This document shows positions 18,568-35,112 of a stretch of 40,930 bases of DNA, in pieces. The notes beneath the pieces were generated by a model that was not told where the DNA came from, did no database searches, and saw only the letters and a program-made list of their open reading frames with translations. Positions within the stretch are counted from its first letter, which is position 1, and each line of letters starts with the position of its first letter. A program made the position numbers and the translations under genes. The DNA is from Methylovulum psychrotolerans (GTDB lineage Bacteria > Pseudomonadota > Gammaproteobacteria > Methylococcales > Methylomonadaceae): contig NZ_PGFZ01000001.1 of the NCBI RefSeq assembly GCF_002923755.1, forward strand, positions 136,770 through 177,699, in the 5' to 3' direction.

Positions 18568-19131
18568 ATGTCTGATTATCGGCGGGCTTATGTGCCGGGC
18601 GGTTCGTTTTTTTTCACGGTGGTGACTGAACGTCGTGCGCCGATATTTCGCGCCGAAACTGCCCGCATGTTTTTGGGTACGGCATTACGCGATTGCCGCC
18701 GGAATTGGCCATTTCGTTTGGATGCTTTGGTTTTGCTGGACGAACATTGTCATGCAATATGGACATTACCCGAAGGTGACACCCGCTATTCGGCGCGGTG
18801 GGGCTTCATCAAAAAGGAATTTACCAAGGCATGGTTGGCGGTGGAAGGACACGAACAAGCATGTAGCTCATCACGGTTAAAACAACGGCGGCGCGGCGTA
18901 TGGCAACGCCGTTTCTGGGAACACGCCCTTCGCGATGAAAACGACTACGCCCGACATTTTGATTATGTGCATTACAATCCGGTGAAACACGGTTATGTCG
19001 AACGTGTGCAAGATTGGCCTTATTCAACTTTCCATCGTTATGTAAAACAAGGCGTTTATGATACCGATTGGGGTGGTGGAAATTTTGACACATCGGTATT
19101 TGATGATTTGGATACCACCGCAATGGAGTAG
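18568..19131 (+). CDS. REP-associated tyrosine transposase (RAYT, Y1_Tnp / TnpA_REP)
   Basis: RAYTs are HUH single-strand endonucleases that recognise and cut REP hairpins. The 187-residue product starts MSDYRRAYVPGGSFFFTVVT, typical for the family. The metal-binding HUH motif appears as DEHCHAIWTLP (about 55-65), followed by FIKKEFTKAWL, a basic stretch, and FWEHALRDENDYARHFDYVH with YNPVKHGYV, where the catalytic tyrosine and helix are expected. The ATG at 18568 is chosen over a TTG at 18562. The gene lies between inverted REP copies, and its own TAG stop codon (19129-19131) is inside the downstream REP. It looks intact and potentially active. Confidence 0.92.
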   Translation: MSDYRRAYVPGGSFFFTVVTERRAPIFRAETARMFLGTALRDCRRNWPFRLDALVLLDEHCHAIWTLPEGDTRYSARWGFIKKEFTKAWLAVEGHEQACSSSRLKQRRRGVWQRRFWEHALRDENDYARHFDYVHYNPVKHGYVERVQDWPYSTFHRYVKQGVYDTDWGGGNFDTSVFDDLDTTAME

Positions 19132-19258
19132 GGTACGCTGTACTCTCAGGGGCATAAATGCGTACCTTTTGCACTGATTTTTATGAGGATTTTTTAAAGG
19201 TACGCACAGCGTACCCTACGGTGAATTGTAAAAGCCGAAAGCTGGCCGTTCACAGTAT
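19128..19258. repeat. REP pair overlapping the RAYT stop codon
   Basis: The left unit GTAGGGTACGC starts at 19128 and contains the RAYT stop. It pairs with GCGTACCCTAC ending at 19219. The inner stem GCGTACC (19160-19166) / GGTACGC (19199-19205) closes a 32-nt loop. A tail (GGTGAATTGTAAAAGCCGAA) follows to about 19258. A near-identical copy with an inverted loop lies at 34982-35112. Confidence 0.85.
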
Positions 19259-19278
19259 ATTTACCTAATATACCTCGC

Positions 19279-19416
19279 CCATTTTGAAAGCCGTAGTTTC
19301 AATGGGTGGCCGAGGATTAACCGTTCGCCTGTCCCCAGGCTGGAGCTTGTCGAAGGGTTCACCACGAACGGATTAACTGGCAACGTCCTTAAGTTAAACT
19401 ACGGATTTCAATATGG
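19279..19416. repeat. Nested palindrome
   Basis: The outer arms of 21 bp (19279-19299 and 19396-19416, built on TTGAAA-GCCGTAGTTT and its complement, few mismatches) enclose an inner pair CCGTTCG (19321-19327) / CGAACGG (19365-19371). The inner part has the GAGCTTGTCGAAGGGTTCA unit that is dispersed in many bacterial genomes. No coding capacity. Confidence 0.6.
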
Positions 19417-19441
19417 ACGGGGTTTATCAAATTTCTTAAAA

Positions 19442-19462
19442 GGTACGCGCAGCGTACCCTAC
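19442..19462. repeat. Solo REP unit
   Basis: GGTACGCGCAGCGTACCCTAC is identical to the unit at 18528-18548 and in the same orientation. It lies 45 bp upstream of the next small gene. Confidence 0.8.
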
Positions 19463-19506
19463 ATGTTACTGCATTACGTTAGGAGTCAACCAAAAGGGGA
19501 TAAGCT

Positions 19507-19998
19507 TTGGGGAATTCGTTCACTACAATGGTCAGGGAGTACCTTTCAAGGCTAGAAGTCCCGTTGGTCGGGGCGTTGCAAAAGTTGGTACAGTATAAGT
19601 ACCCAAAAGAAGTCTATGCACTGGCATTCGAAATATTTAGCGATGGTTTTACATCCCAATTTCCCGCGCGTGTTTTCTTCATGGATCGTACAAATACCGA
19701 GTGCTTTTTGTATGAAAACGGAGTGGCAAAGTACCCATCCCCAATTGATCCAAATATTTTGGAAGTTGAGTATGTGTATCCACAGGAAATTGAAGAAGAG
19801 TTTGCCGCGAAAGATCCAGAGCTTGACCCTTGGAATATTGCAACCCTCGAATTTATTGCCTGGTTCTATTCCTGCTGGACTAAGGCGGGAGGAAAGAATT
19901 TCCCTTTGGTTGCTACCATCGCACATCATGATTCATCAAGAGAATTCAATCTTATAACTGGTCAATGGCAAGAGTCCTATGCGCAATTTAACGCCTAA
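19507..19998 (+). CDS. Small protein of unknown function (possible integron-cassette gene)
   Basis: This soluble 163-residue protein has no recognised domain. The N-terminal half has TMVREYLSRLEVPLVGALQK, and the C-terminal half an acidic, aromatic-rich stretch (QEIEEEFAAKDPELDPWNI, then FIAWFYSCWTKAGG). The size and composition would suit an immunity- or SMI1-like protein, but I cannot support a family. The start is a TTG at 19507 preceded by AAAAGGGGA at good distance; the ATG at 19528 lacks this. The gene is AT-rich relative to its neighbours. The stop codon overlaps a GCCTAAC motif and the upstream region ends in CGTTAGGA, the two half-signals expected around an integron gene cassette, so it was probably acquired that way. 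Confidence 0.72.
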   Translation: MGNSFTTMVREYLSRLEVPLVGALQKLVQYKYPKEVYALAFEIFSDGFTSQFPARVFFMDRTNTECFLYENGVAKYPSPIDPNILEVEYVYPQEIEEEFAAKDPELDPWNIATLEFIAWFYSCWTKAGGKNFPLVATIAHHDSSREFNLITGQWQESYAQFNA

Positions 19999-20040
19999 CA
20001 AGTCGGTCAAAGGCTGCCCGCCGTTCCGCTGGCGAAGTTG
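19993..20040 (+). other. attC-like (integron recombination site) remnant
   Basis: GCCTAAC (19993-19999) fits the RYYYAAC box of attC sites and is followed by AAGTCGGTCAAAGGC, as in many chromosomal attC sites, and a CGCC/GGCG stem (20019-20034). The matching GTTRRRY end is missing downstream, so the site would be truncated. No integrase gene is in the window. Confidence 0.35.
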
Positions 20041-20141
20041 GTTTTTTTGTCACAGGTAAGCGGCTTCGTTGTAGGCCATCAAGAGGTAGCCCTTTACCGT
20101 AACCTTGGGCATAAGGGTCTGCATTGGGAGCTTGTCGTGAC

Positions 20142-20295
20142 CTTAGAAACGTGCATGAAATTAAGTAGGCGTTCTATTGCACGGGGTCCCGGCTCTAAGT
20201 CTTTGGGCGAAGCCGAAGAGCCGCTCCCTTCGGCTTCGCTCAGGGAACGGCTCTTCGTCTCTACAACGGATTTTTATTTTGTACGCGTTTCTTAG
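20142..20295. repeat. Family A repeat, diverged copy A4
   Basis: The left end CTTAGAAACGTGCATGAAAT (20142) and right end TTTTGTACGCGTTTCTTAG (ending 20295) are imperfect inverted repeats of family A. The interior shares AAGTAGGCGTTCTATTGCAC with other copies but then carries TTCGGCTTCGCTCAGGG palindromes instead of the G-rich core. Its right end covers the stop codon of the cytochrome peroxidase gene. Confidence 0.7.
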
Positions 20296-21296
20296 TTAAA
20301 GGTTTTACCAGGTGTGCCGGGCAGTTGTGGCATGGTTTGTTTTGGGAATTCGCCAGTCAGGGCGTTCAGGAACGCGGTGATGTCGGCGACATCGTCTTTA
20401 GACAGGTCTTTGCCTAATTGGACTTTTGCCATGACGGTGACAGCTTGCTCTAGGGTTTTAACCGAGCCGTTATGGAAATACGGGGCGGTCAAGGCGATGT
20501 TGCGTAAGGTGGGCACTTTAAACAAATGCGCGTCGGCTTCGTTTTTGGTCACTTCGGCTAAGCCTTGGTCTTTTTTGAAGTGGTATTGGGCTTCAAAATA
20601 ATCGTTGCCGATGACCGGGAAGCGTTGGAACGCGCCGCCGCCGTTTAAGGCCGGGCCGCTATGGCAACCGGTACAGCCGAGTTCTTCCATTTTGGTCATG
20701 CCGCTGACTTGTTGGGTGGTCAGGGCGGCTTTGTTGCCGTTGACGTATTGGTCGTAAGGGCTGTTAGGGGTGATTAAGGTACGTTCGTAAGCGGCAATGG
20801 CTTTGGTGGCGTTATCTTTAGAGATGGCATCTTTACCGAAGGCTTGTTCAAAAGCTTTGTCGTAGCCTTCGATGGCTTTCAGGCGGGCGACGACATCATC
20901 CCAGCTTTTCATGCCCATTTCGATGGGGTTGGTAACGGGGCCGGCGGCTTGGGCTTCTAGACTGGGGGCGCGGCCATCCCAGAATTGGACGCTGTTAAAC
21001 GCGGAGTTCCAGACGGTCGGGGCGCTGCGGCCACCGGTTTGGCCGTGGACACCCATAGAGTTGGGGCGGTTGTCTTCGCCGCCTAGCATGGTGTTATGGC
21101 AAGACGAGCAGGACACGGTGCCGGTTGAGGACAGGCGCGGGTCGTGGTAGAGCATTTTGCCCAATTCGACTTTTTCTGGGGTAGTGGGGTTGTCGGCAGG
21201 GGCGGGGGCTTCGGTCGGCAGGGTTTCCCAAGCGTTGGCGACTGACAGCGAACCTGCCAGGGCGAGTGCGGAAACCAATAAGCGAATTTTAAACAT
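20292..21296 (-). CDS. Di-haem cytochrome c peroxidase (CcpA/MauG family)
   Basis: This periplasmic enzyme of 334 residues reduces hydrogen peroxide with electrons from small c-type cytochromes. It has a signal peptide (cleavage near VANA-W, about residue 22) and two haem-binding motifs, CSSCH (63-67) and CTGCH (208-212), with the family blocks GRSAPTVWNSAF, QFWDGRA, EMGMKSWDDV and KVPTLRNIALTAPYFHNGS. The start at 21296 is decided by GGAGGATAC directly before the ATG; a longer frame to 21362 has no such site. A promoter-like sequence lies at 21386-21415. Family A repeat A4 abuts and overlaps the stop codon. MauG-type maturases share the fold, but the length and motifs favour a peroxidase. 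Confidence 0.93.
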   Translation of the reverse strand: MFKIRLLVSALALAGSLSVANAWETLPTEAPAPADNPTTPEKVELGKMLYHDPRLSSTGTVSCSSCHNTMLGGEDNRPNSMGVHGQTGGRSAPTVWNSAFNSVQFWDGRAPSLEAQAAGPVTNPIEMGMKSWDDVVARLKAIEGYDKAFEQAFGKDAISKDNATKAIAAYERTLITPNSPYDQYVNGNKAALTTQQVSGMTKMEELGCTGCHSGPALNGGGAFQRFPVIGNDYFEAQYHFKKDQGLAEVTKNEADAHLFKVPTLRNIALTAPYFHNGSVKTLEQAVTVMAKVQLGKDLSKDDVADITAFLNALTGEFPKQTMPQLPGTPGKTFN

Positions 21297-21385
21297 GTAT
21301 CCTCCAAATATTATTTTTATGGTTGGTGAAAGGGCCATTAACCAGCCCTTGCGGTAAAACAAGGTATAAATGGCCCATGAAACGT

Positions 21386-21415
21386 ATTATACCTGCTTGG
21401 ATTGTAAAATATTAA
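21386..21415 (-). promoter_or_regulatory. Predicted promoter of the cytochrome c peroxidase gene
   Basis: On the minus strand a perfect -10 TATAAT (21391-21386) is preceded by TTAATA (21415-21410) with an 18-bp spacer. The -35 is weak (4 of 6 matches). It lies 90 bp upstream of the start codon. Confidence 0.5.
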
Positions 21416-21585
21416 CCGGGTTAGGTACAATCAAATTACGGTTACAGGCGATTTGCTTTAGCTTTGGCTCACATTACGTTTTGAGGGCATAGGCAAATAA
21501 GGCGTTAAACCCGATTAGGATCGTACATAAAATTAAGTAGGCGGTTCCATTGCACCTCAGCGTGTTAAACCCCACCCCAGCCCTC

Positions 21586-22905
21586 CTTACAAGTGTAGGT
21601 TTTCTTACCCTCCACCCCCTTCTGCGTAAATAGCCAAAGTCACGCCGTTGATTTCCGTCAAACCGGGCCATGCCTCAGGCCGCCCCGGTTTGACGGGCAG
21701 GAGTTGGTGGTTCAGCAAGGCGGCGACAATCAAAGACCAACCGTGTTGGAAAATGCCGACCATCCGCCAGCGCTTCCCTTGTCGCCGTGCCGCACCCGGC
21801 ACTGATGGTTCCTTGATGTCCAACGGCGTGTCGGCTCCGGCCTCGGCTTCGCCACCGACGGAAAGCAGCCACCAGGTGGCGATGGCAATGGCCATCCACA
21901 GCCGCTCCGCCCGCGCCGGATCATCCATGCGCGTATGTTGCCATTGCCAACCGCCCCGCTTGCTGTGCTTGAAGCCCTGTTCTATCCATGCCCTCAAACC
22001 GTACCAGCAGGCGTCGGCGCATTCGGGCGCCAGATCGGTCAGCACCAGCCACGGGCCGTTGTGCCCTTCGCCCCAACAGCCCAACAACGTGCAGGGCAAC
22101 TGTGTCTTTTTGCCGCTGAACGCGGTGCCGCGCCCCTGCCAACGGCGGCCTTCCGCAGGCACCAAACTGCAAAAGGGATGCCAGCGGCACCAGCCTTCGG
22201 GACGGAACGAACCTTGGACATTGACGCGCAGGAACGGATGCCATTTCAGTTCCACGATGGCCCCGAACAGCCATTTCGCGTATAAGCCCCGGTCGGCCAG
22301 CACGATGACCGTCCAGCCCTCCGGCAACAGTCCCCGGAAACGCCCCAACAACGCCAGCCATTCCGGTTTCCAGGCGTGTTTCTCCGTGGCTTTCAGCACC
22401 TTCCAGGCGATCGGCACGGCACAGCCACGGTACACGACACTGATGGCCAGCACGGTGAACCGATCCCCCAGGCTCGTCGCATCCATGGCGATGGCGAGCT
22501 GGCGGCCTGCCCAGCCGTCCAATACCCAGGCCAGCCACGGCGCCCAACACTCGGTGACGCAAAGGTCGGCACGCCGCCGCCCCGATTTCGCGCCCGCTTC
22601 CCGATAGGTGTCACGCAACCTTTCACGCAGCGTGTTGTACTTTTGCCCCAGCAGCGGCGACAACACGTCGGCCACGGCGGTCAGGCTGCATGAACGCGCG
22701 ACGACCATGCCAAAACTCCACAACGCCAAGCCCAATGCCTGTGGCTTGCTGAGGGACGGAAAATGCATGGCAATCGTGTCGATCCATTGGTATAGTTCTG
22801 GATGGCGGGGCATGGCGGCACCTTCGGTAAACGGATGTTGATGACACTCATCAATTTACTCTCAACGCTTTGCCCCGTCACTTTTTAAAAACCTACACTT
22901 GTAAG
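21586..22905 (-). mobile_element. IS4-family insertion sequence (complete)
   Basis: This 1320-bp element has perfect 18-bp terminal inverted repeats (CTTACAAGTGTAGGTTTT at 21586-21603, its complement at 22888-22905) and an 11-bp direct target duplication CCCCAGCCCTC (21575-21585 and 22906-22916). It carries one transposase gene and no passenger. The intact ends, clean duplication and full-length gene point to a recent insertion. Confidence 0.93.
21605..22813 (-). CDS. IS4-family DDE transposase
   Basis: The 402-residue transposase has the DDE catalytic residues in AMDATSL (about 109-115, first Asp), VLADRGLYAKWL (about 172-183, second Asp) and a textbook YREK signature Y-GL-R-AWI-E-QGFKHS-K (about 269-283, Glu). 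These place it in the IS4 family. The gene fills the insertion sequence, with its stop codon two bases inside the left inverted repeat. The frame is uninterrupted, so it is probably functional. Base composition is GC-rich. A 319-codon frame on the opposite strand is an antisense shadow. Confidence 0.94.
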   Translation of the reverse strand: MPRHPELYQWIDTIAMHFPSLSKPQALGLALWSFGMVVARSCSLTAVADVLSPLLGQKYNTLRERLRDTYREAGAKSGRRRADLCVTECWAPWLAWVLDGWAGRQLAIAMDATSLGDRFTVLAISVVYRGCAVPIAWKVLKATEKHAWKPEWLALLGRFRGLLPEGWTVIVLADRGLYAKWLFGAIVELKWHPFLRVNVQGSFRPEGWCRWHPFCSLVPAEGRRWQGRGTAFSGKKTQLPCTLLGCWGEGHNGPWLVLTDLAPECADACWYGLRAWIEQGFKHSKRGGWQWQHTRMDDPARAERLWMAIAIATWWLLSVGGEAEAGADTPLDIKEPSVPGAARRQGKRWRMVGIFQHGWSLIVAALLNHQLLPVKPGRPEAWPGLTEINGVTLAIYAEGGGG

Positions 22906-23034
22906 CCCCAGCCCTCCCCTTCGCAGGGGAGGGAGCTTATGCCTTCCCCGTCGTACAGGCGAAAATCAGGAGGGAGGGGTTGCCGTACTTTCGCTTCTAC
23001 TACAGATTTATTTCATGCACGTTCCTTATCGCGT

Positions 23035-25680
23035 TTAATGCTCGGCTTCTAACATCGCGGCCATTTCATTGTAGATGTGCTGTTGCCGTACCGGGTCGGT
23101 AATCGGCTGGTTTTGTGGGTCGGTGACGTAAAACAAATCCTCGGCGCGGCTGCCGATGGTAGTGATCTTGGCGCTGTGCAGGTTAATGTGCTGTTTGATG
23201 AAGGCTTGGCCGATTTGGGACAGCAGGCCGGCGCGGTCGGTGGTGACCAGTTCGATAACGGTATGCCGCCCTAGCGGGTCGTCTAAAAATTGGATGCGGG
23301 TCGGAATCGGAAAATGGCGGGCCTGGCGTGATTGGCGGTGTAGGTTTTTGTGTTTTTTAACTTCTTGTTTGCGCAAGCTGGTTTGCAGGGCGGTGCGGAT
23401 ATGTTCCTCGCGGTAATGGTCTTGGATAGGCTCGCCGGACTGTTCCAACACTTGGAAGCTATTGAGGGTGTAATCGTTCAGCGTGGTCATGATCCGTGCG
23501 TCTAAGATGGTCAGGCCCAGTTGGTCGAGGGTGGCGGTGCACAGGGAAAAAATTGGCCCGCAGTTTTCGGTATAGACGAATATTTCCGCGCTGCCGCGTT
23601 GGGTATGCGGCTCCAATAACACCAGCGGCAGGTCGGCCGGGTCGGCGTAGGCGATGGCGCGGGTATGCCAGACAATTTCATCGGTGGCGTAACGTAAGAA
23701 GTAATCGTCGCTGAGGTTGTGCCACGTCTTGTCAATGACGCTTTCACATAAGCCCAGTTGGCGCAGTTCGTCTTTGGCTTCGGCTTTGTTCTCCGCCAGC
23801 CGTTCCGCGAGAGTGACCGGATTTTGCAGGCCTTTGTGCAGGACGCTATGGGTTTTGTTATACAGCTCTTTGAGCAGCACGTCTTTCCAGGAGTTCCACA
23901 GTTCCGGGTTGGTGGCGCGGATGTCGGCGACGGTGAGCAGGTACAGGTAGTTAAGGTATTCGATGCTGCCGACCAATTGCGCGAATTCGTGGATGACATC
24001 GATGTCGCTGATGTCTTTGCGTTGGGCGGTCATGGACATCATCAGGTGGTTGCGTACCAGCCAAGCGGTCAGTTTGCTGTCGTGGTTGGACAGCCCGTGC
24101 TGTAGGCAAAATTGGTAGGCGATGTCTTCGCCGATGGTGGAGTGGTCGCCGTTGCGGCCTTTGGCAATGTCATGGAACAGCCCGCCGAGGTAGAGCAGTT
24201 CGGGTTTTTGGATTTGTAAAAAAACTTTGTGGCAAAACGGCATTTCGTTGCAATGGGCTTCAATCGAGAAGCGGCGCAAGTTGCGGATCACGAACAGGGT
24301 GTGTTCATCGACGGTGTAAATGTGGAACAGGTCGTACTGCATCCGCGCGACGATGTTGGCGAAGCTGGGCAGGTAGGCGGCCAGGACACCGTAGCGGTTC
24401 ATGCGTTTGAGTTGGGTGGTGATGCCGCGCGGTTGCCGCAACAGTTCGATGAACAACTGGTTAGCGGCCTTGTCGGTGCGGAACGCGTCGTCCATCAGGT
24501 GCAGGTTTTTGCGGATCAGGCGGATGGTGGTGGCGCGGATGCCGCTTAAGCTGGTATTTTGTTGGAGGATGAGGAAAATTTTCAGCAATAAGAGCGGGTT
24601 GCGGGTAAACACGTCTTCATCGACCGCTTCCAGATAGCCGTTGATGGCGACAAAGTCCTCGCTGATGTCGGTGGGCCGGCAACCGGTTTCGCCACAAACG
24701 AAACGCTCGTTAAACAGTTGCAGAAGCATTTCGTTCAGCCGCTCCAGGCCTTGTACGGTTTTAAAATAAAACTGCATGAAGCGTTCAACGTCTTGGTTGT
24801 ATTGCTGGTCTGCGCCGCTAAAGCCGAATTGTTGGGCGAGGTCGCGTTGGTAGTCGAAAATCAGGCGGTCTTCGCCGCGTTGCGTGAGCAGGTGCAGGGC
24901 ATAACGGATGCGCCACAGCACTTCGCGGGCGGCAATCAGCTCGTTATATTCCGACTCCGGCATGAAGTTGTATTTGATCAGCTCTTTCAGGGTGGAAGAA
25001 TGGTAATGGCGCTTGAACACCCACGCGATGACCTGCATATCCCGCAAGCCGCCGGGGCCTTCTTTGACGTTCGGCTCCAGATTGTAGGCGGTGTTATGGG
25101 CTTTGGCGTAGCGTTGCTCCTGTTCGGCCATTTTGGCTTGAAAGAACAGGTCCGAAGGCCAGATATGGTCGGGCGAGGTCTGTTCTTTCAGTTCATCAAA
25201 TAAGTCAGGGTTGCCGGTAATCAGACGGATTTCGGTCAGGCTGGTCATGACCGTCTGGTTTTTAATGGCTTCGGCCACGCATTCGCTAATGGTGCGCACG
25301 CTTTGTCCGGGTTTGAGGCTGATGTCCCAGAGGAAGGTGAAGAAGTTGCCCAAATCTTCTTGGTAGCCGCTGTCGTCGCCGTCCTCTTCGCCGTTGTCGA
25401 GCATCACTAAGATGTCGATGTCGGAATAGGGGAACAGTTCGCGCCGCCCGTAGCCGCCGACGGCGATGAGGGCGAAGCGGGCGGCTTTGATGCCGAGAAA
25501 ATGCCGCCACGCGCTGCTGAGCAGATTGTCGATAAAGTCCGAGCGTTCTTTAATAAGCGCCGACACCGATTGGTGCGGGTCGAATTTTTGTTTAAGTTCC
25601 GCCTCGTTGTGTTTCAGCAAAAGCTTAAACTGTTGCAGGTGGTCGGGCTGGTCAAAGAGTTCAGAATACAAAGGCTTCAC
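23035..25680 (-). CDS. glnD: Bifunctional [protein-PII] uridylyltransferase / uridylyl-removing enzyme
   Basis: GlnD is the glutamine sensor that adds UMP to, or removes it from, PII proteins and so controls nitrogen assimilation. The 881 residues match the family (E. coli 890). Domains in order are nucleotidyltransferase (GGYGRRELFPYSDIDILVM, about 73-91, with the metal Asp pair), the helical linker with KEGPGGLRDMQVIAWVFK, the HD hydrolase domain (GLFHDIAKGRNGDHS, about 500-514), and two C-terminal ACT domains (about 695-770 and 805-881, the second with VIELVTTDRAGLLSQIG). It starts with GTG at 25680 and overlaps the end of map by 4 bp (GTGA), the usual map-glnD coupling. Confidence 0.97.
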   Translation of the reverse strand: MKPLYSELFDQPDHLQQFKLLLKHNEAELKQKFDPHQSVSALIKERSDFIDNLLSSAWRHFLGIKAARFALIAVGGYGRRELFPYSDIDILVMLDNGEEDGDDSGYQEDLGNFFTFLWDISLKPGQSVRTISECVAEAIKNQTVMTSLTEIRLITGNPDLFDELKEQTSPDHIWPSDLFFQAKMAEQEQRYAKAHNTAYNLEPNVKEGPGGLRDMQVIAWVFKRHYHSSTLKELIKYNFMPESEYNELIAAREVLWRIRYALHLLTQRGEDRLIFDYQRDLAQQFGFSGADQQYNQDVERFMQFYFKTVQGLERLNEMLLQLFNERFVCGETGCRPTDISEDFVAINGYLEAVDEDVFTRNPLLLLKIFLILQQNTSLSGIRATTIRLIRKNLHLMDDAFRTDKAANQLFIELLRQPRGITTQLKRMNRYGVLAAYLPSFANIVARMQYDLFHIYTVDEHTLFVIRNLRRFSIEAHCNEMPFCHKVFLQIQKPELLYLGGLFHDIAKGRNGDHSTIGEDIAYQFCLQHGLSNHDSKLTAWLVRNHLMMSMTAQRKDISDIDVIHEFAQLVGSIEYLNYLYLLTVADIRATNPELWNSWKDVLLKELYNKTHSVLHKGLQNPVTLAERLAENKAEAKDELRQLGLCESVIDKTWHNLSDDYFLRYATDEIVWHTRAIAYADPADLPLVLLEPHTQRGSAEIFVYTENCGPIFSLCTATLDQLGLTILDARIMTTLNDYTLNSFQVLEQSGEPIQDHYREEHIRTALQTSLRKQEVKKHKNLHRQSRQARHFPIPTRIQFLDDPLGRHTVIELVTTDRAGLLSQIGQAFIKQHINLHSAKITTIGSRAEDLFYVTDPQNQPITDPVRQQHIYNEMAAMLEAEH

Positions 25681-26441
25681 CGTTCTTCTTGGCGTAAGGT
25701 CAGGATTTCATAGCCGGTCGGGGTGACCAGTATGGTATGTTCCCATTGCGCAGATAAGCTATGGTCTTTAGTGACCGCCGTCCAACCGTCCGCTAAAACT
25801 TTGACATGGCGTTTGCCCAGGTTAATCATGGGCTCGATGGTGATAATCATGCCCGCGTCCAGCACGTCGCCGCTACCCGCCTTGCCATAATGGAGGACTT
25901 GCGGGTCTTCATGGAATTTTTTGCCGATGCCGTGCCCGCAGAATTCGCGTACTACCGAATAACGGTTGCCTTCGGCATGTTTTTGGATGGCATGGCCGAT
26001 GTCGCCCAGGGTAGCCCCGGCCTTGACTTGCTCAATGCCTTTGTACATGGATTCTTGGGTGATTTTTACCAGCCGTTTGGCGTGGGGGCTGACCTCGCCG
26101 ACACAAAACATTTTGCTGGTGTCGCCGTGATAGCCGTCTTTAATGACGGTGATGTCGATATTGACAATATCGCCGGATTTAAGTTTCTTGTCGCTGGGGA
26201 TGCCGTGGCAAACCTGCTGGTTGATCGAGGTGCAGATCGATTTGGGGAAGCCTTTGTAATTCAGCGGCGCGGCAATGGCTTCTTGGACATTGACGATATA
26301 GTCGTAGCAAATTTGGTCTAGCTCGTTGGTGGTGATGCCGGGGACGACAAAAGGTTCGAGCATTTCTAAGACTTGTGCGGCCAGTCGGCCTGCCACACGC
26401 ATTTTGTCGATTTCACTGGCGTTTTTTATAATGATGCTCAT
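25677..26441 (-). CDS. map: Methionine aminopeptidase, type I
   Basis: This cytosolic metalloprotease removes the N-terminal methionine from new proteins. The 254-residue length is normal for type Ia. The motifs CHGIPSDKKLKSGDIVNIDIT, GYHGDTSKMF, FCGHGIGKKFHEDPQVLHYG and GMIITIEPMI carry the metal-binding Asp, Asp, His, Glu residues, and the final Glu is in QWEHTILV. ATG 26441 is preferred to TTG 26447. It is divergent from rpsB across a 263-bp regulatory region and overlaps glnD by 4 bp, the arrangement seen in many gammaproteobacteria. Confidence 0.97.
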   Translation of the reverse strand: MSIIIKNASEIDKMRVAGRLAAQVLEMLEPFVVPGITTNELDQICYDYIVNVQEAIAAPLNYKGFPKSICTSINQQVCHGIPSDKKLKSGDIVNIDITVIKDGYHGDTSKMFCVGEVSPHAKRLVKITQESMYKGIEQVKAGATLGDIGHAIQKHAEGNRYSVVREFCGHGIGKKFHEDPQVLHYGKAGSGDVLDAGMIITIEPMINLGKRHVKVLADGWTAVTKDHSLSAQWEHTILVTPTGYEILTLRQEER

Positions 26442-26524
26442 AGTCAATTAGCAATGGCTACTGCTGTCGGCAGTATTTCAGGGTCAAAAAGTATAAGGAA
26501 CTGGAGAGTTTAACAGAGATTGGC

Positions 26525-26553
26525 TTGTTGTAAAAAGCTTTATATGGTATAAA
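26525..26553 (+). promoter_or_regulatory. Predicted promoter of rpsB-tsf
   Basis: TTGTTG (26525-26530), a 17-bp spacer and TATAAA (26548-26553) lie about 150 bp upstream of the rpsB start. The -10 is close to consensus and the -35 is weak. This gives a leader of roughly 145 nt. Confidence 0.5.
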
Positions 26554-26559
26554 GATAAG

Positions 26560-26704: not shown

Positions 26705-27448
26705 ATGGCAGCAGTATCTATGCGTCAAATGCTCGAAGCGGGTGTCCACTTTGGCCACCAAACCCGTTACTGGAACCCCAAAATGGCTAACTACCTGTTC
26801 GGTTCGCGTAACAAAATCCACATCATCGATTTGGAAAAAACGCTTCCTTTATTTAACGACGCTATGAACTATCTGGGTCAAATGGCGGCTAACAAAGGCA
26901 CTATTTTGTTTGTCGGCACCAAAAAAGCCGCGCGTAAAGTGGTCGCCGAAGAAGCGGCGCGTTGTGGTATGCCTTACGTCAACCATCGTTGGTTGGGCGG
27001 CATGATGACCAACTTTAAAACCATCAAAAAATCAATTAACCGCCTGAAAGAGCTGGAAGCGATGAAAGCGGACGGCACTTTGTACCAACGTTTCGGCAAA
27101 AAAGAAGCCTTGGGTATGGAGCGCGAACTGGAAAAGCTGGAACGCAGCCTCGGCGGCATTAAAGACATGAAAGGCGTGCCTGATGTGATTTTCATCTTGG
27201 ATGTCGGCTACGAAAAAAATGCCATCAGCGAAGCCAGAAAATTGGGCATTCCTGTGGTCGGTGTGGTTGACTCCAACAACTCACCTGACAAAGTGGATTA
27301 TGTCATTCCGGGTAATGACGATTCAATCCGCGCCGTTAAGCTGTATTGCGAAAGCGTGTGCGCGGCGGTATTGGATGCCAAAGCGGCGACTTTAGGCCTG
27401 TCCGCCAAAGCCGACGACTTTGTTGAAGAAGCGCCAGCAGCAGAATAA
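26705..27448 (+). CDS. rpsB: 30S ribosomal protein S2
   Basis: S2 (uS2) is one of the last proteins to join the small subunit. The 247-residue protein has the N-terminal signature [20 protein letters not shown], then [36 protein letters not shown], the coiled-coil region [20 protein letters not shown], and [20 protein letters not shown]. The AGGAGAAATAA site precedes the ATG. It heads the conserved rpsB-tsf-pyrH-frr cluster; a terminator-like hairpin at 27501-27526 separates it from tsf. Confidence 0.98.
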
Positions 27449-27500
27449 AGGCCGCTTCCGGCCTACGGCAAATGCTGTAAGGGCCGGGATTGGATTAGAC

Positions 27501-27526
27501 AACGCCTCCTTAACGGGGGCGTTTTT
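27501..27526 (+). terminator. Terminator or attenuator between rpsB and tsf
   Basis: AACGCCTCC (27501-27509) pairs with GGGGGCGTT (27515-27523; one G-T pair), with a TTAAC loop and a run of T residues. An intercistronic partial terminator at this place is known in E. coli and would make tsf expression lower than rpsB. Confidence 0.75.
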
Positions 27527-27572
27527 ATAGTGACACAGACTATTTTTAAAAAACAGGCGAGGAAAACGAGCA

Positions 27573-28460
27573 ATGAGTATTACTATTAGTGCAGCAATGG
27601 TGAAAGAGCTACGCGAGAGAACCAGTTCAGGCATGATGGAATGTAAAAAAGCGTTGGTTGAAGCCGAAGGCGACATGGAATTGGCGATTGAGAACATGCG
27701 TAAGGCCGGTTTGGCGAAAGCCGACAAAAAATCAGGCCGTATCGCTGCCGAAGGCATCATTGGCGTACAAGTCAGCCCCGACGGCAAAACTGTCGCTATC
27801 GTTGACATTAACTGCGAAACCGACTTTGTTGCCAAAGCCGACGATTTTGTCAGCTTTGTCAAAAACGTGACGGTCGGTATCTTAAATGCCGATATTCAAA
27901 CCGAAGAACAATTATTGGCGATGCCGTTGGAAGATGGCGTTACTGTCGACGAAATGCGCCGTGGCCTGATCGCCAAATTGGGCGAAAACATCACCGTCAG
28001 ACGTTTTGAAAAATTCACCGCCTCAGAAGGCGGCACCGCTTGCTATCTGCACGGCAGCAAAATGGGCGTAATCGTTGAGTTGGCGGTTGCCGACCCTGAG
28101 TTAGGTAAAGATGTCGCCATGCACATTGCCGCCAGCAAACCCATTTGCGTGTCCGAAGACCAAGTGTCGCCTGAAACTATCGCCAAAGAAAAAGAAATTT
28201 TCATGGCGCAAGCGGCAGAAAGCGGCAAGCCTGCGGAAATTATCGAAAAAATGGTGGTCGGACGGATCAGCAAATTCTTGGCCGAAGTTACCCTGTTAGG
28301 CCAACCGTTCATTAAAGACGATAAAATCACCGTCGGTAAGTTGGCAGCTTCTAAAGGCAATAAAGTCATCCGTTTCAGCCGTTTTGAAGTGGGCGAAGGT
28401 ATTGAGAAAAAAGAAGAAAACTTTGCCGAAGAAGTCATGGCGCAAGTACGCGGCAGTTAA
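27573..28460 (+). CDS. tsf: Elongation factor Ts
   Basis: EF-Ts is the cytosolic guanine-nucleotide exchange factor that recycles EF-Tu. The 295-residue product (E. coli 283) begins with the UBA-like domain AAMVKELRERTSSGMMECKK and ALVEAEGDMELAIENMRKAG. The core TDFVAKADDF motif that inserts into EF-Tu is at about residues 82-91. The second repeat contains HIAASKPICVSEDQVSPETI. GAGGAAAA is the ribosome binding site. It sits 124 bp after rpsB in the standard order. Confidence 0.98.
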   Translation: MSITISAAMVKELRERTSSGMMECKKALVEAEGDMELAIENMRKAGLAKADKKSGRIAAEGIIGVQVSPDGKTVAIVDINCETDFVAKADDFVSFVKNVTVGILNADIQTEEQLLAMPLEDGVTVDEMRRGLIAKLGENITVRRFEKFTASEGGTACYLHGSKMGVIVELAVADPELGKDVAMHIAASKPICVSEDQVSPETIAKEKEIFMAQAAESGKPAEIIEKMVVGRISKFLAEVTLLGQPFIKDDKITVGKLAASKGNKVIRFSRFEVGEGIEKKEENFAEEVMAQVRGS

Positions 28461-28539
28461 TGTCCGCCTCCCAAGCAACTTGGGATAAAATGCTTGCCAC
28501 TTAGACGTAACCCTTTAAAAGCCGACCTCCGATAAAACT

Positions 28540-29253
28540 ATGACCAAGCTGATTTGCCAAAGAATATTGTTGAAATTAAGCGGTGAAGCCTTAATGAGCG
28601 ATGTGGGCGGCAGTATCGATGCCGACATTGTGCAGCGGCTGGCGACCGAAATTAAAGAATTGTGTGACTGCGGTGTTCAGGTAGGTTTGGTGATCGGCGG
28701 CGGCAACATCTTGCGCGGTGCGGAAAAGGCCTCCCAAGGCCTGGACCGCGTCACCGGCGACCAGATGGGAATGCTTGCCACCGTCATCAATGCCTTAGCC
28801 ATGCAGGATGCCATTGAGCATTTAGGGCAACCGGTACGCGTGATGTCCGCGCTTAAGATTAATCAGGTCTGTGAAGATTATATCCGCCGCCGTGCCGTCC
28901 GGCATTTGGAAAAAGGCCGGGTGGTGATTTTTGCTGCCGGGACGGGTAATCCGTTCTTCACCACCGATTCCGCCGCCAGCCTCAGGGCGATAGAAATCAA
29001 CGCGCAATTGATGATTAAGGCCACGAAAGTCAAAGGCGTGTATTCGGCCGACCCTGAAAAAGTTAAAGATGCGACGTTTTACCCGCGTTTAAGTTATGAC
29101 GAAGCCCTGGACCAACGCTTAAATGTTATGGACACCACCGCTTTGGTATTGTGTAAGGAAAACAATATGCCGATGCGGGTCATGAATATTTTTGAGCAGG
29201 GGGCTATTATGCGGCTGATGACCGGCGAAGACATCGGCTCACTTATTCAATGA
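28540..29253 (+). CDS. pyrH: UMP kinase
   Basis: PyrH phosphorylates UMP to UDP in pyrimidine synthesis and is hexameric and cytosolic. The 237 residues match the bacterial enzyme. Signatures are [60 protein letters not shown] and [14 protein letters not shown]. It lies between tsf and frr in the translation/pyrimidine cluster, 10 bp before frr. Confidence 0.98.
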
Positions 29254-29263
29254 GGAACACAAA

Positions 29264-29821
29264 ATGATTAATGATATTCAAAAAGATGCCTCTATCCGTA
29301 TGGGTAAAAGCATCGACGCTTTGAAACATGAATTTTCTAAAATACGCACAGGCCGTGCGCATCCGAGTTTGTTGGACCAGGTGACGGTGTCTTATTACGG
29401 CACTGAGTCCTCTATCTCCCAAGTCGCCAATGTCGCGGTGGAAGATTCGCGTACCCTGACTATCACGCCTTGGGAAAAAGGCATGGTGCAGGCGATTGAA
29501 AAGGCGATCTTAAAGTCCGATTTGGGGCTTAACCCGGCGACTAACGGTATGGTTATCCGGGTGCCGTTGCCGTCTTTGACGGAAGAGCGCCGCCGGAGTT
29601 TGGTCAAGGTCGTTAAGCACGAAGCTGAAAATGGCCGCGTGGCGATCCGCAACATCCGCCGCGATGCCAATTCCGACATTCAAAAAGCGTTAAAAGAAAA
29701 GTTGATTTCAGAAGACGAGGCACGTTCAGGCGAGGACAAAATCCAAAAGCTGACCGACCAGTTTGTCAAAGATGTGGAGAAGTTGTTGGAAGCCAAAGAA
29801 GCTGACTTATTGTCCATTTAA
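29264..29821 (+). CDS. frr: Ribosome recycling factor
   Basis: RRF, with EF-G, splits the post-termination ribosome. The 185-residue length is exact for the family. Key blocks are the start [40 protein letters not shown], the central ALRTITPWEK-like segment [12 protein letters not shown], and [20 protein letters not shown] seen here as [20 protein letters not shown]. It follows pyrH by 10 bp and precedes uppS by 16 bp, so all are probably one transcript. Confidence 0.98.
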
Positions 29822-29837
29822 GACTGGGATTAACGTT

Positions 29838-30596
29838 ATGTCCAATGATGACCTGAACTTTTCGGCGGCGACTCCCCGCCATATCGCCATTATTATGGAC
29901 GGTAATGGGCGGTGGGCGCAGAAGCGTTTTATGCCCCGCGCGTTCGGTCATCAGGCAGGCGTTAAGACCGTCAGGAAGATGGTCGAGTATTGCGCCAGAA
30001 ATAAGATAGAGGTGTTGAGCCTATTTGCGTTCAGCAGCGAAAATTGGCGGCGGCCGCAAGATGAGGTGTCCATGCTGATGAACCTGTTTTTGGCGACGCT
30101 GCAAAGTGAAATCAATAAGCTGGACCGCAACAATATCCGTTTGCGTTTTATCGGCGACCGGAGCCAGTTTTCTGACAGTTTGCAGAAAAAAATGGCCGAA
30201 GGCGAAACGCAGACCCAGAACAATACCGCCCTGACCTTAGTGATTGCCGCCAATTACGGTGGCCGCTGGGATATGTGCCAGGCCTGCCAGCAAGTGCTGG
30301 ATAAAATGGCGGCGGGCGAATTGCCGCCGCAAGCGATTACCGAGCAGTTGCTGAACCAGCATTTGTCTACCGCCGGGTTGCCGGAACCGGATTTGTTTAT
30401 CCGTACGGGCGGCGAGCAGCGGGTGAGCAATTTTATGCTGTGGCAACTCGCTTACACGGAAATGTATTTTACCCCGACGCTGTGGCCTGATTTTGACGAA
30501 GCAGCGCTGGAAGCGGCGGTTGTCAGCTTTACGGGCCGGCAACGCCGGTTTGGCCATACCGGCGAGCAGATAGCTAACCGATCCGTTACCTTATAA
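29838..30596 (+). CDS. uppS: Undecaprenyl diphosphate synthase (di-trans,poly-cis)
   Basis: UppS extends farnesyl diphosphate to the C55 lipid carrier needed for peptidoglycan and surface polysaccharide. The protein (252 residues from ATG 29838) has the catalytic loop IAIIMDGNGRWAQKR (about 17-31, Asp at about 22), SLFAFSSENWRRP, and PDLFIRTGGEQRVSNFMLWQ near the C-terminus with LAYTEMYFTPTLWPDF. An upstream in-frame start inside frr (29763) is disregarded because the conserved N-terminus begins after 29838. Confidence 0.97.
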   Translation: MSNDDLNFSAATPRHIAIIMDGNGRWAQKRFMPRAFGHQAGVKTVRKMVEYCARNKIEVLSLFAFSSENWRRPQDEVSMLMNLFLATLQSEINKLDRNNIRLRFIGDRSQFSDSLQKKMAEGETQTQNNTALTLVIAANYGGRWDMCQACQQVLDKMAAGELPPQAITEQLLNQHLSTAGLPEPDLFIRTGGEQRVSNFMLWQLAYTEMYFTPTLWPDFDEAALEAAVVSFTGRQRRFGHTGEQIANRSVTL

Positions 30597-30615
30597 TTTA
30601 TCTTAAGACCTACCC

Positions 30616-31488
30616 ATGTTATTACAGCGAATTATCACAGCATCTATCTTGGCAACCTTGATTGCCCTCGCCGTCTTTTTGTTGCCGATTGACTATTTCT
30701 CCCTCGTGTTGGCGATTATCGCCCTAATCGGCGGCTGGGAATGGGGCAACTTGATTGGCATCAACTCATTGCTTAAGCGCGTGTTGTTTTTGGTGATGAT
30801 GATAGTTCCGATGTTAGGCATCCATTTTTGGACACAACTGCTGGAAGTGGTGGCCACCCTGTTAGATTGGACGGAAGTCAGAACCTATTCGGGGGTGTTG
30901 GACTGGCTGGCGGTTCCGCCCGTGATGTTTTGGCTGCTGATGATGATTATGATCCGCAACGCCCCCGGCGGTGTCTTGGCGTTGCAATTAAAACCCCGTT
31001 ACAAGGTTTTTATCGGTTGGTTTGTGCTGTTGGCGACATGGATGTTCCTGTCACGCTTGCGGTCTTTTTATGGCTCAGAAATGACTATGTATTTTTTATT
31101 GCTGATTTGGGCTGCCGATGTCGCCGCCTATTTCGTCGGCAAAAAATATGGCACGGTCAAGCTGTCGCCTGAAATCAGCCCCGGCAAAACGGTTCAGGGC
31201 ATGTACGGCGCTTTGGCGGCGGGGGCGTTGTGCGGCGTTATCCTGTGCCTGATTTACCTGTTCCCGATTATGATTTCTGCCGACTTTGTGTTGCTGTCGG
31301 CTTTGACGGTGCTGATTTCGATTTATGGCGACTTGTTTTTCAGTGTCGTCAAACGCCAAAGGGGCGTTAAGGACAGTGGCTCGATATTACCCGGCCACGG
31401 CGGTATCTTAGATCGGATAGACAGCATTATCGCCGCCGCCCCGTTCTTTTATGCAGGCGTGTTCCTGATTTATCGGAGCGTATCATGA
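30616..31488 (+). CDS. cdsA: Phosphatidate cytidylyltransferase
   Basis: CdsA makes CDP-diacylglycerol, the precursor of phospholipids. It is an integral inner-membrane protein of 290 residues with about eight hydrophobic segments. The C-terminal signature is intact: [20 protein letters not shown] and [13 protein letters not shown] (about 240-272). It overlaps dxr by four bases (ATGA at 31485-31488), which shows tight coupling. Confidence 0.97.
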
Positions 31489-32669
31489 AAGGGATTTGCA
31501 TACTCGGCGCGACCGGCTCTATTGGGGTCAGTACCTTGGATGTCGTGGCACGGCATCCGCATTTATACCGGGTCGTAGCCTTAACCGCCAACACCAATAC
31601 CGATCTGCTGTTTAGTCAATGCTTGGAGCACCACCCCGATTATGCGGTGGTGGTGGATGAAAAGCGGGTACAGGCGTTTCGGGAAAAAATTAAAGCCTCG
31701 ATAGTATCCGACATTAAAGTGTTGTCGGGGGCTAAAGCCTTGGAGCAAGTCGCCAGTTTGCCCGCTGTCGATTCGGTCATGGCGGCGATTGTCGGCGCGG
31801 CGGGGCTGTTGCCTTCCCTAGCCGCCGCCAAAGCGGGCAAAACCGTGTTGCTGGCGAACAAAGAAGCCTTAGTCATGTCCGGCGACATTTTTATGCAGGC
31901 CGTCACCGCCGCCGGGGCGCAGTTACTGCCGATTGACAGCGAGCATAACGCCATTTTCCAATGTATGCCCGCCGCTTATCAAGCCGGTCAGCATAGTCCG
32001 CTGGTACGGCGCATTTTATTGACTGCCTCCGGCGGCCCGTTCCGGCAAACCCCTTTAGAACAATTACCCGATGTCACCCCCGCGCAAGCGGTCGCCCACC
32101 CTAATTGGGATATGGGCAAAAAAATCTCCGTCGATTCGGCGACCATGATGAACAAAGGCTTGGAAATGATCGAAGCCTGCCTGTTGTTCAATATGCAGCC
32201 TGAGCAAATCCAAATCGTTATCCATCCGCAAAGCGTCATCCATTCGATGGTCGATTATGTCGACGGCACGGTGCTGGCGCAAATGGGCAACCCCGATATG
32301 CGCATCCCTATCGCCCATGCCCTTGCCGCCCCCGAACGCTTTGACTCCGGCGCTGAGCCGCTAGACATCTTTAAGGTCGGGCGTATGGATTTTGAAGCCC
32401 CTGACTTCCAACGCTTCCCTTGCTTGCGTTTGGCTTACGAGGCCATCCATGCGGGCGGCATTATGCCGACTGTGTTAAATGCCGCCAACGAAATCGCCGT
32501 CGAGGCCTTCCTGCAAGGGCAGATCCGCTTTACCGACATCGCTAAGGTGATCGAACGCAGTATGGCGGCGTTTACCGTCCGCCCAGCCGACACGCTGGAG
32601 ATTGTCTTGGACGCAGACCAGCAAGCGCGGGTAGCCGCCAACCAAGTGTTAAGCCAATTGGACCGTTAA
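31485..32669 (+). CDS. dxr: 1-deoxy-D-xylulose 5-phosphate reductoisomerase
   Basis: Dxr (IspC) carries out the first committed step of the MEP isoprenoid pathway with NADPH and a divalent metal. The 394-residue protein has the NADPH-binding [17 protein letters not shown], the [11 protein letters not shown] block, the metal/substrate segment [21 protein letters not shown], and the [20 protein letters not shown] signature. It overlaps cdsA by 4 bp and rseP by one base (TAATG). It supplies the precursor that UppS, two genes upstream, eventually consumes. Confidence 0.97.
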
Positions 32670-34039
32670 TGGCCTTCTTACATACGCTGTTTTATTTTTT
32701 CCTCGCCATCGGGCTATTAGTGTCTATCCATGAGTTTGGGCATTTTTGGGTGGCGCGTAAAGTCGGCGTAAAGGTGTTAATATTTTCGGTCGGCTTTGGC
32801 AAAATTCTCTGGTCGTACCAAAAATCCCCCACCGACACCCGTTATGCCTTTTCGGCGATACCTTTGGGCGGCTATGTCAAAATGGTTGACGAACGCGAAG
32901 GCGAAGTCAGCCCCAAGGATTTGCCGTTTGCCTTTAACCGCCAAGCCCTGTGGGCGAGGTCGGCTATTGTCGCCGCCGGGCCGGTTTTTAACCTGGTGTT
33001 GGCGGTATTGCTGTTTTGGAGCGTGCTGGTGATCGGCGAGGCCGATTTTAGGCCGATTATCGGGGTTGCCGAGCAAGGTACCTTGGCGGCGCAAGCGGGC
33101 TTTGCCGACGGTGAAGAAATTATTGCCGTTAATGGCAAAACCTCGCCGACCTGGACAGAAGCCATGGGTTTGCTGATGGCGGCGGGTATGGACGGCGATC
33201 AGAGCATTCAGGTCACGGTCAAAAATCCAGCGGATGAACAACGGGAGCGGGTTATCACGTTGGCCGAAGGCGATGCCGAAAGCCCCGATAAGCTTTATCA
33301 GCATTTTGGCTTTAAGCCGTGGTCGCCAAAGCTCAAGCCTATTATCGGCACAGTTTTGCCGGACAGCGCCGCCTTGGCCGCTGGTTTAAAAACGGGCGAT
33401 GTGTTGCTCAGCGCCGACGCGATACCGCTAGATGACTGGCTGCAATGGGTCGGCATCGTCAAAAAACATCCGGGCAGCCCGATTAGCCTGATGATTGAGC
33501 GTGATGGCGTAGCCATGCCTATAACGATTATTCCCAACGCTGTGGTAACGGATCCCCAAAGCCAGCAGAAAGAAGGCAAGATCGGCGCTTCGGTGCTGTT
33601 TCCTGACGAGTTGCGCAAAAAAATAAGCGTCGATTATGTGTTGCCGCCTTGGGAAGCTATCCCGATTGCTTTTGAAACCACCTATTATAATGCCAGCGGC
33701 ACGTTGAAAATGATCGGCAAGATCATCATCGGCAAAGCGTCGGTAAAAAACTTAAGCGGCCCGCTGAGCATTGCCGAATATGCGGGTAAATCCGCCGAGG
33801 TCGGTTTAGTGCCGTTTTTGAAATTTTTAGGCTTAATCAGTGTCAGTTTAGGTGTGCTGAATTTATTGCCGATTCCGGTATTGGACGGTGGCCATCTGTT
33901 GTTTTTTGCCTTGGAAGCCATTTTTGGCCGACCCATGCCGGAACGGGTGCAAATGGCATTCCAGCAACTCGGTATGCTGCTGCTGTTCGCGGTGATGGTT
34001 TTGGCGTTGGTTTTGGATATGCAGCGCAAGTTTTTTTAA
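32669..34039 (+). CDS. rseP: Site-2 intramembrane zinc protease RseP
   Basis: RseP cleaves the anti-sigma factor RseA inside the inner membrane during the envelope stress response and clears signal peptides. The 456-residue protein has the zinc site SIHEFGHF in its first membrane helix (about 18-25), two periplasmic PDZ domains (about 115-200 and 215-300) and the third metal ligand in the LLPIPVLDGGHLLFF motif (about 400-414). In many gammaproteobacteria bamA follows directly; here 142 bp and dsbC follow instead. Confidence 0.95.
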   Translation: MAFLHTLFYFFLAIGLLVSIHEFGHFWVARKVGVKVLIFSVGFGKILWSYQKSPTDTRYAFSAIPLGGYVKMVDEREGEVSPKDLPFAFNRQALWARSAIVAAGPVFNLVLAVLLFWSVLVIGEADFRPIIGVAEQGTLAAQAGFADGEEIIAVNGKTSPTWTEAMGLLMAAGMDGDQSIQVTVKNPADEQRERVITLAEGDAESPDKLYQHFGFKPWSPKLKPIIGTVLPDSAALAAGLKTGDVLLSADAIPLDDWLQWVGIVKKHPGSPISLMIERDGVAMPITIIPNAVVTDPQSQQKEGKIGASVLFPDELRKKISVDYVLPPWEAIPIAFETTYYNASGTLKMIGKIIIGKASVKNLSGPLSIAEYAGKSAEVGLVPFLKFLGLISVSLGVLNLLPIPVLDGGHLLFFALEAIFGRPMPERVQMAFQQLGMLLLFAVMVLALVLDMQRKFF

Positions 34040-34181
34040 GCGGATTTAAAAACCCGCTAACAATAAGGGGCGTGTAGGATGTTGCCCCGCAGGCAGGCTT
34101 ATCTTAGGCCTATATGAACAAATCCATGTTACTGCTGTCGGACAGCCACAGCATTCTATATTTGTAACCCACGAGAAAACC

Positions 34182-34904
34182 ATGAAAAAACTACTTAAGA
34201 TTGCCGCGTTATCGGTGACGGCGTTAAGCTTAGCCGTTGCCCATGCCGATGAAACCGCCATTAAGCAAATGTTGGCGAAATCTATGCCGGATGTGCGCGT
34301 GGACTCTGTCCGGCCTTCGGATATTAAAGGCATTTATGAGGTTATGGTGGGGGCAAATATTTTGTACGCCACGGAAGACGGCAAGTATATTTTTCAAGGC
34401 CGTTTGATTGATGTCGAATCACGCGCCGATTTGACCGAACAGAAATTAGGCGCTGTCCGTCTGGCCGCTTTAGATAAGCTTGGCGAAGCGAAGATGATTA
34501 TCTTTAAGGCGAAAATCCCTAAATATACCGTCACTATTTTTACGGATATTGATTGCGCTTATTGCCGCAAGCTGCATTCGGAAATTGATTCTTACATGGC
34601 GCAAGGCATTACCATCCGCTATGTGTTCTTCCCCCGTGCCGGCAAAGGCTCCGAGTCTTACAATAAAGCCGTGTCGGTTTGGTGCGCTAAAGACCGTAAC
34701 GCCGCGTTAACCGCCGCCAAGAAAGACCAGTCTATCGATAACAAATCCTGTGAAAATCCGGTTGATGAACACATGCAGCTGGCCGCTGATTTTGACGTAA
34801 AAGGCACCCCGATGATTATCACCGAAAAAGGCAATGTCTACCCCGGTTACTTGCCTGCGAAAGAATTGGTGCAAGCCTTGGAAATTGAGAAAAAGCCCCG
34901 CTAA
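34182..34904 (+). CDS. dsbC: Thiol:disulfide interchange protein DsbC
   Basis: DsbC is the periplasmic disulphide isomerase. The 240-residue protein has a signal peptide (cleavage after VAHA, about residue 22), an N-terminal dimerisation domain (about 25-85), and a thioredoxin fold with active site DIDCAYCRKLH (about 122-132) and cis-proline loop KGTPMII (about 206-212). The E. coli active site is CGYC; the CAYC variant here keeps both cysteines. Two more cysteines (VWCAKD, SCENP) form the usual structural disulphide. It is separated from rseP by a 142-bp gap. Confidence 0.94.
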   Translation: MKKLLKIAALSVTALSLAVAHADETAIKQMLAKSMPDVRVDSVRPSDIKGIYEVMVGANILYATEDGKYIFQGRLIDVESRADLTEQKLGAVRLAALDKLGEAKMIIFKAKIPKYTVTIFTDIDCAYCRKLHSEIDSYMAQGITIRYVFFPRAGKGSESYNKAVSVWCAKDRNAALTAAKKDQSIDNKSCENPVDEHMQLAADFDVKGTPMIITEKGNVYPGYLPAKELVQALEIEKKPR

Positions 34905-34908
34905 CTCC

Positions 34909-35112
34909 CTTTCGGCTACGCTCAGGGCAAGCTTCGAGGCTCAGGGTATACACTTCAAATGGTCAAGTTTTCGGCTTTTTGGTAGGGTACGCTGTACCCT
35001 CAGGGGCATAAATGCGTACCTTTAAAAAACCATCATAAAATCAGTGCAAAAGGTACGCACAGCGTACCCTACGGTGAATTGTAAAAGCCGAAAACTTGGC
35101 CGTTCCAGTATA
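34909..35112. repeat. REP-pair element with inverted loop
   Basis: A TTCGGCTACGCTCAGGGC unit at 34909-34927 precedes a long palindrome from 34962 (TCAAGTTTTCGGCTTTTT) to about 35100 (its complement). Inside, GTAGGGTACGC (34982) and GCGTACCCTAC (ending 35072) are the RAYT-type REP units, and the loop (35021-35051) lies between GCGTACC and GGTACGC. The element matches 19128-19258 except that the loop is reverse-complemented. Confidence 0.85.

Follow-up and report, generated by a model that had tools for sequence, protein, structure and literature searches.

Doublets of repetitive extragenic palindromic (REP) sequences rank with the most frequent repeats in bacterial genomes. In the REPINs described by Bertels and Rainey (2011; PMC3116915), two inverted REPs enclose a spacer and form a hairpin, and these units are dispersed through a genome that also carries a REP-associated tyrosine transposase (RAYT) gene; inversion of the spacer is not mentioned in the passages of that paper considered here. 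GTAG repeats with RAYT and TIRYT genes have been described in a second report (PMC3733652), in whose relevant parts, as in the DNA analyzed here, the REP consists of GTAG followed by GGTACGC-TGT-GCGTACC and RAYT genes are flanked by such repeats, some of them overlapping the end of the gene. The window discussed in this report is a stretch of 40,930 nucleotides of Methylovulum psychrotolerans (NZ_PGFZ01000001.1, positions 136,770 to 177,699). It holds two REP pairs, A and B, 15.8 kb apart, which are copies of a GTAG-type REP doublet (REPIN) inside the terminal inverted repeats of a short element resembling a miniature inverted-repeat transposable element (MITE). In a minority of copies of this element the loop alone appears to have been inverted, most likely by replication template switching at the hairpin, an explanation that we hold with moderate confidence.

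Genomes are designated by G numbers, with one genome per species and G000 being the window's own, and loci by L numbers. The parts of copies A and B are as follows.

19128..19166, + strand: left REP arm of copy A, including the CAGGGGCATAAAT spacer; the RAYT's terminal REP forms the outer part of this arm, by comparison with G002
19167..19198, - strand: loop of copy A, inverted relative to the family standard
19199..19219, - strand: right REP arm of copy A (inverted REP)
19220..19259, - strand: sole remaining MITE end of copy A, G-type; the T-type end is missing
34947..34981, + strand: T-type MITE end of copy B
34982..35020, + strand: left REP arm of copy B with spacer
35021..35051, + strand: loop of copy B, in the family-standard orientation
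35052..35072, - strand: right REP arm of copy B
35073..35112, - strand: G-type MITE end of copy B

Both copies lie where the original prediction had placed them, with loop A at 19167-19198 and loop B at 35021-35051. When loop A is inverted it aligns to loop B with 29 identities and one gap (score 25), compared to 16 identities and a score of -5.5 in direct reading. The inverted score was reached by none of 10,000 dinucleotide shuffles (mean, 4.8; maximum, 17), which rules out chance similarity. One of 39 bases differs between the left arms, the 21-base right arms match completely, and the tails are near-identical, so that the predicted picture of shared arms and tails around oppositely oriented loops is borne out. 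Two other parts of that picture had to be given up. A and B are not a duplication pair, since loop A reversed is identical at 32 of 32 positions to the loops of L009 and L010, with loop B being more distant; the same identity rules out B as the parent of A. The repeat that could mediate the flip is also longer than the 7 bp proposed, as single-stranded A and B are each predicted to adopt a two-part stem, 13 bp outside and 11 bp inside, interrupted on one side by an 18-nt bulge that in B contains a 3-bp hairpin (fold z-scores of -6.8 for A and -8.0 for B, matched by none of 200 shuffles in either case).

The 127 matches obtained from the genome containing the window (97 contigs, 5.19 Mb) represent fragments of copies that number several tens. 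The plan of the element is a G-type end (TATACTGTGAACGGCCAAGTTTTCGGCTTTTACAATTCACC), a GTAG REP, the loop, an inverted REP and a T-type end (inward reading TATACTTCAAACGGTCAAGTTTTCGGTTTTTTTG). The REP, GTAGGGTACGC-TGT-GCGTACC, has 42 matches in this genome at up to 2 mismatches and the pattern of the MITE end has 113, and the reversed control gave none in either case. The many copies of GTAG followed by a short palindrome identify the repeat as a GTAG-type REP, the inverted doublet predicted to form a hairpin (by the fold z-scores of A and B) as a REPIN, and the terminal inverted repeats present in many copies as those of a MITE. The loop between the two REPs is about 31 bases long (30 to 32). 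Because the two end types differ in the bases adjoining the REP, the direction of a copy can be read independently of its loop, which would be impossible with a symmetrical REPIN.

Family matches were present in 16 of the 20 genomes of the genus, among the matches listed. At least 98 copies with a loop fitting the family were parsed by script from fetched stretches and search loci, in 10 genomes; this survey is a lower bound, as the first scoring took at most 40 candidates per genome and part of the listed matches were fetched. Outside the parsed set, L015 was seen by eye to be standard, and L018, L019, L021 and L131 to be truncated or broken. With two readable ends, 70 copies are standard and 5 are inverted, 4 of them clearly and 1 weakly, and with one readable end, 11 are standard and 2 inverted (A, which is clear, and 1 weak); the orientation of the other 10 of the 98 is unreadable. 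The unequal ends show B to be standard and A inverted, which rules out B as the inverted copy. The original prediction of a loop that flipped after duplication while the arms stayed in place is thus right in that orientation differs relative to arms and ends, and wrong in the duplication. Arms measure 21 bp per side in 76 of the 88 orientation-readable copies and are perfectly complementary in 22.

The five clear inverted copies are spread over four genomes: A (G000), L077/L114 (G001), L108 and the first L112 element (G009), and L130 (G010). Their loops match standard loops at 0.93 to 1.00 identity when inverted and at 0.62 to 0.70 as read, and the loop of L108 is exactly that of L104, L105 and L088. 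The smallest margin over the opposite direction among the 81 standard copies is 0.12. Collecting copies and counting orientations, as had been proposed as a check, therefore yields other inverted copies in the genus, so A and B are not its only orientation pair, and one refuting condition set in the original prediction, the absence of any further pair, does not apply. A strict inverted-form pattern run over 237 genomes of the family found only two of the known copies (G001 and G009), and it misses the first L112 element and L130. The nearest ends of each clear inverted copy belong to standard copies (for A, one end was counted), so the inverted copies look like singletons rather than one spreading inverted subfamily; the inversions would then be separate events in each genome. 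Inversion was found in 3 of 11 two-end copies of G009 versus 0 of 31 in G002 (p = 0.014, a single chosen comparison that includes the weak copy L111). The observation is more general than the A/B pair, and its cause is most likely a replication error of a known type.

Two forms are likewise seen among the short, single-hairpin MITE copies. Among those of G000 with two ends, the 3-nt center is GCT in ten (L020, L022-L027, L061 and two at L063) and AGC in five (L030, L062 and L064-L066). Very small loop inversions could have produced them, but so could mirrored deletions in the long form, which would yield the same two products; for this reason they were left out of the inversion count.

In template switching, the two REPs would pair, leaving about 31 bases as the loop of a hairpin, and at this hairpin the polymerase would switch from one arm onto the complementary arm, copy the loop from the opposite strand and switch back, leaving the loop inverted between its arms. 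The expected outcome, an inverted loop between unchanged arms, is what is seen, with the position of the arms readable only in two unequal-arm copies. Seven standard copies carry a spacer in an arm, on the T side in five, the G side in one and both sides in one; the two inverted copies that carry it (A, with the RAYT replacing the T end, and the first L112 element) both have it on the T side, which in these small numbers fits a flip of the loop alone. The family, its standard orientation, the inverted copies in four genomes and the junction at the RAYT REP are computed results, whereas template switching as the mechanism, a separate event in each genome and movement of the loop alone are what we infer from them. 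L007 (G000:C12:310239-310381), with the CAGGGGCATAAAT spacer on both arms, looks like a case of arm homogenization, the other product expected of template switching. In yeast, as described in the parts of PMC8604942 considered here, template switching between short inverted repeats homogenizes arms and inverts spacers. The corresponding parts of PMC8755829 report inversions of 17 to 33 nt that distinguish human from chimpanzee and lie, without exception, between inverted repeats; they argue that double-stranded DNA of this length cannot loop for ordinary recombination. By that argument the 31-base segment would be too short for double-stranded looping.

Several points weigh against template switching, or against the inversions themselves. 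Perfect stems of at least 20 bp occur in 3 of 7 inverted and 20 of 81 standard copies, a difference short of significance (p = 0.37), and the arms of two inverted copies (A and the first L112 element) are interrupted. The inverted yeast spacers are 2 to 5 bp long, with short spacers favored (PMC8604942), and for many of the inversions in PMC8755829 that paper favors break-induced replication over template switching, given their short or imperfect repeats, as far as the parts considered go. G002 has no inversion in 35 readable copies, of which only 2 have perfect 21/21 arms. With one genome per species, no locus was seen in both orientations; an all-against-all comparison of loci revealed shared flanks, none of them with an inverted element except the RAYT locus, whose relative is without the MITE. 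Copy A is readable from one end only, and two of the inverted calls are weak, with 0.84 identity inverted versus 0.75 as read for L111 (G009) and 0.84 versus 0.72 for L080 (G008, one end).

Gene conversion is an alternative that we regard as unlikely but worth weighing. Given palindromic arms, a copy elsewhere could align the other way round and pass on its loop in reversed form. Donors are available as other copies in the same genome, arms of up to 21 to 25 bp give some homology, and A and L108 each have a loop identical to that of other copies in the same genome, although such identity is also expected if a copy flipped soon after spreading. No element with two same-type ends was found among the 98 parsed copies (75 with two ends), which speaks against crossing-over between copies and also against gene conversion, in which single arm exchanges would leave such ends; selection could, however, remove these products.

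Improbable as well, in our view, is a variant of the template-switching explanation in which a larger unit, both REPs with the loop, inverted across the outer 13- to 14-bp repeat. Where the arms are symmetrical this would be indistinguishable from a flip of the loop alone, but the spacer lies on the T side in both inverted copies that carry it and in five of the seven such standard copies, a position that argues for the latter, again in small numbers.

The surroundings of copy A bear on the remaining alternatives, and the features there are as follows.

18408..18428, + strand: REP upstream of the RAYT gene (REP pattern match)
18528..18548, - strand: inverted REP just upstream of the RAYT start (REP pattern match)
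18568..19131, + strand: RAYT gene (NF047646), whose stop overlaps the GTAG of copy A
19442..19462, - strand: further inverted REP downstream of copy A (REP pattern match)

The RAYT gene matches NCBIfam NF047646 (E = 4.7e-56) and no Pfam family at E ≤ 0.001. REPs flank it on both sides, and the REP GTAG at 19128 overlaps its stop codon TAG (19129-19131). Its closest relative in G002 (87% identity over 676 bases) has the same REP over the stop codon and no MITE after it, and homology to the window stops at that REP. Copy A, which lacks a T-type end, is very probably a fusion in which the RAYT's own terminal REP was joined to that of a MITE; a deletion between directly repeated REPs would be the simplest route. 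This fusion explains the missing T-type end, but not the inverted loop. Copy A would thus be the product of two steps, in either order, the loss of the T-side end by REP-REP joining and the inversion of the loop. Adjoining the RAYT gene on its other side is a gene of the DUF6979 family (17984-18391, + strand; E = 8.6e-46).

The RAYT itself might have catalyzed the inversion, by nicking the two strands between C and T on the inner side of each REP and joining the ends crosswise, though we doubt it. In the parts of PMC8266576 considered here, cleavage of REP between C and T is known for other TnpA-REP enzymes, which cut single-stranded REP DNA at this step on either side (5' or 3') of the REP and are also able to join strands. 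The inverted REP is there neither bound nor cleaved, which complicates a two-strand reaction, yet each strand here has one active-sense REP. The C-T step is present at both loop edges in all five clear inverted copies, but also in 53 of 81 standard copies (p = 0.17). Copy A adjoins the only RAYT match at E ≤ 1e-20 in G000, and a RAYT match lies within 5 kb of 2 of 7 inverted (A and the weak L080) versus 0 of 81 standard copies (p = 0.005). However, A was picked for its place beside the RAYT, and without it the comparison is 1 of 6, a weak copy, versus 0 of 81 (p = 0.07). The other four clear inverted copies have no RAYT match within 80 kb on their contigs, several of which are short and make this a weak test. 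As a general statement, that RAYTs flip REPIN loops by cutting and cross-joining C-T steps at both edges on opposite strands, the idea seems to us slightly more doubtful still; if it were true, REPINs would be invertible hairpins whose loop orientation records past transposase activity. For the weak copy L080 of G008, the RAYT match is a fragment (L233) at a distance of 2.5 kb on the same 5.3-kb contig (C330).

Very unlikely is a mosaic origin without any flip, which concerns copy A only and in which a G-side-spacer element like L014 joined the RAYT REP and gained a foreign G-type end: L014 and the truncated L021 do have the spacer beside the same loop end as A, and one end replacement at the RAYT REP is very probable, but the mosaic requires two end exchanges and leaves unexplained the four clearly inverted copies whose two ends can both be read.

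Template switching at the hairpin would act on an element whose REP doublet looks like the cargo of a MITE. Both MITE ends are present in 75 of the 98 parsed copies (found largely with queries containing these ends), and the moving unit may therefore be the MITE; REP doublets without MITE ends also exist (L039, L056 and L060). Both tips are recognized in 44 of the 75 two-end copies, and 30 of the 44 start with TATA at both. In G000 (L280-L299) the same ends enclose palindromes of other types (GGATTAACCG... and GGAGCGCGGGCATC...) or, in members of about 62 bp, hardly any sequence, and judging from these sequences a single MITE family carries palindromic cargo that can be exchanged. Among the elements with these ends, one of 1.15 kb, L293:97-1248 (G000:C23:70346-71497), contains a broken gene with a DDE_3 transposase domain (E = 7.3e-22), likely a relative of the element that moves the MITE; we provisionally take this element and the MITE to be of the IS630 type. 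It is these ends shared with other cargoes, together with the transposase-bearing member, that give the REP doublet the look of cargo.

Other features of the family and the window may be mentioned. By eye, the outermost tips (CTCTGAACGG or CTTCAAACGG) of L101-L108 (G009) are not always paired with the same inner end type, and flips at the level of the outer repeat may account for this. L078 (G007) and L085 (G016) share a site, with 89% identity over 1578 bases, at which the hairpin is long in G007 and collapsed to a single one in G016. Near the two ends of the window (180-276 and 40823-40919) lies a pair of inverted repeats of 97 bases with 98% complementarity, and a transposase with a DDE_Tnp_1 domain (E = 5.4e-7) is encoded at 21605-22813 on the - strand.

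No report of REP or REPIN loop inversion was found in the searches made of openly licensed literature. The original prediction held that loop inversion had not been described, which agrees with the literature searched as far as REP and REPIN loops are concerned but does not extend to spacer inversion in general, described in yeast and primates. If loops invert now and then, their orientation could easily be scored as a sign of replication errors linked to hairpins, or of RAYT activity, and local transcripts could be altered where an asymmetric loop inverts. Plastid genomes, too, have small inversions at stem-loops, which resemble the loops described here but belong to organelle DNA.

Compared with described systems, taken from the parts of each paper considered here, the present family combines familiar features in a different setting. 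Unlike the REPINs of PMC3116915, 75 of 98 copies here lie between MITE-type terminal inverted repeats, and the spacer occurs in two orientations. The terminal repeats of PMC3733652, in whose main text the string "Methylo" is absent, flank transposase genes, whereas here they flank a gene-less REP doublet. With the yeast spacer inversions (PMC8604942) our family shares unchanged arms, an inverted spacer, recurrence and arm homogenization as a companion, but those concern coding genes and spacers of 2 to 5 bp, rather than a 30- to 32-bp loop in a bacterial mobile repeat. The human and chimpanzee microinversions (PMC8755829) are closer in size, at 17 to 33 nt, and likewise lie between inverted repeats; they were recognized by comparison of the same locus in primates, with break-induced replication favored, whereas the inversions described here emerge from comparison between copies of a repeat family.

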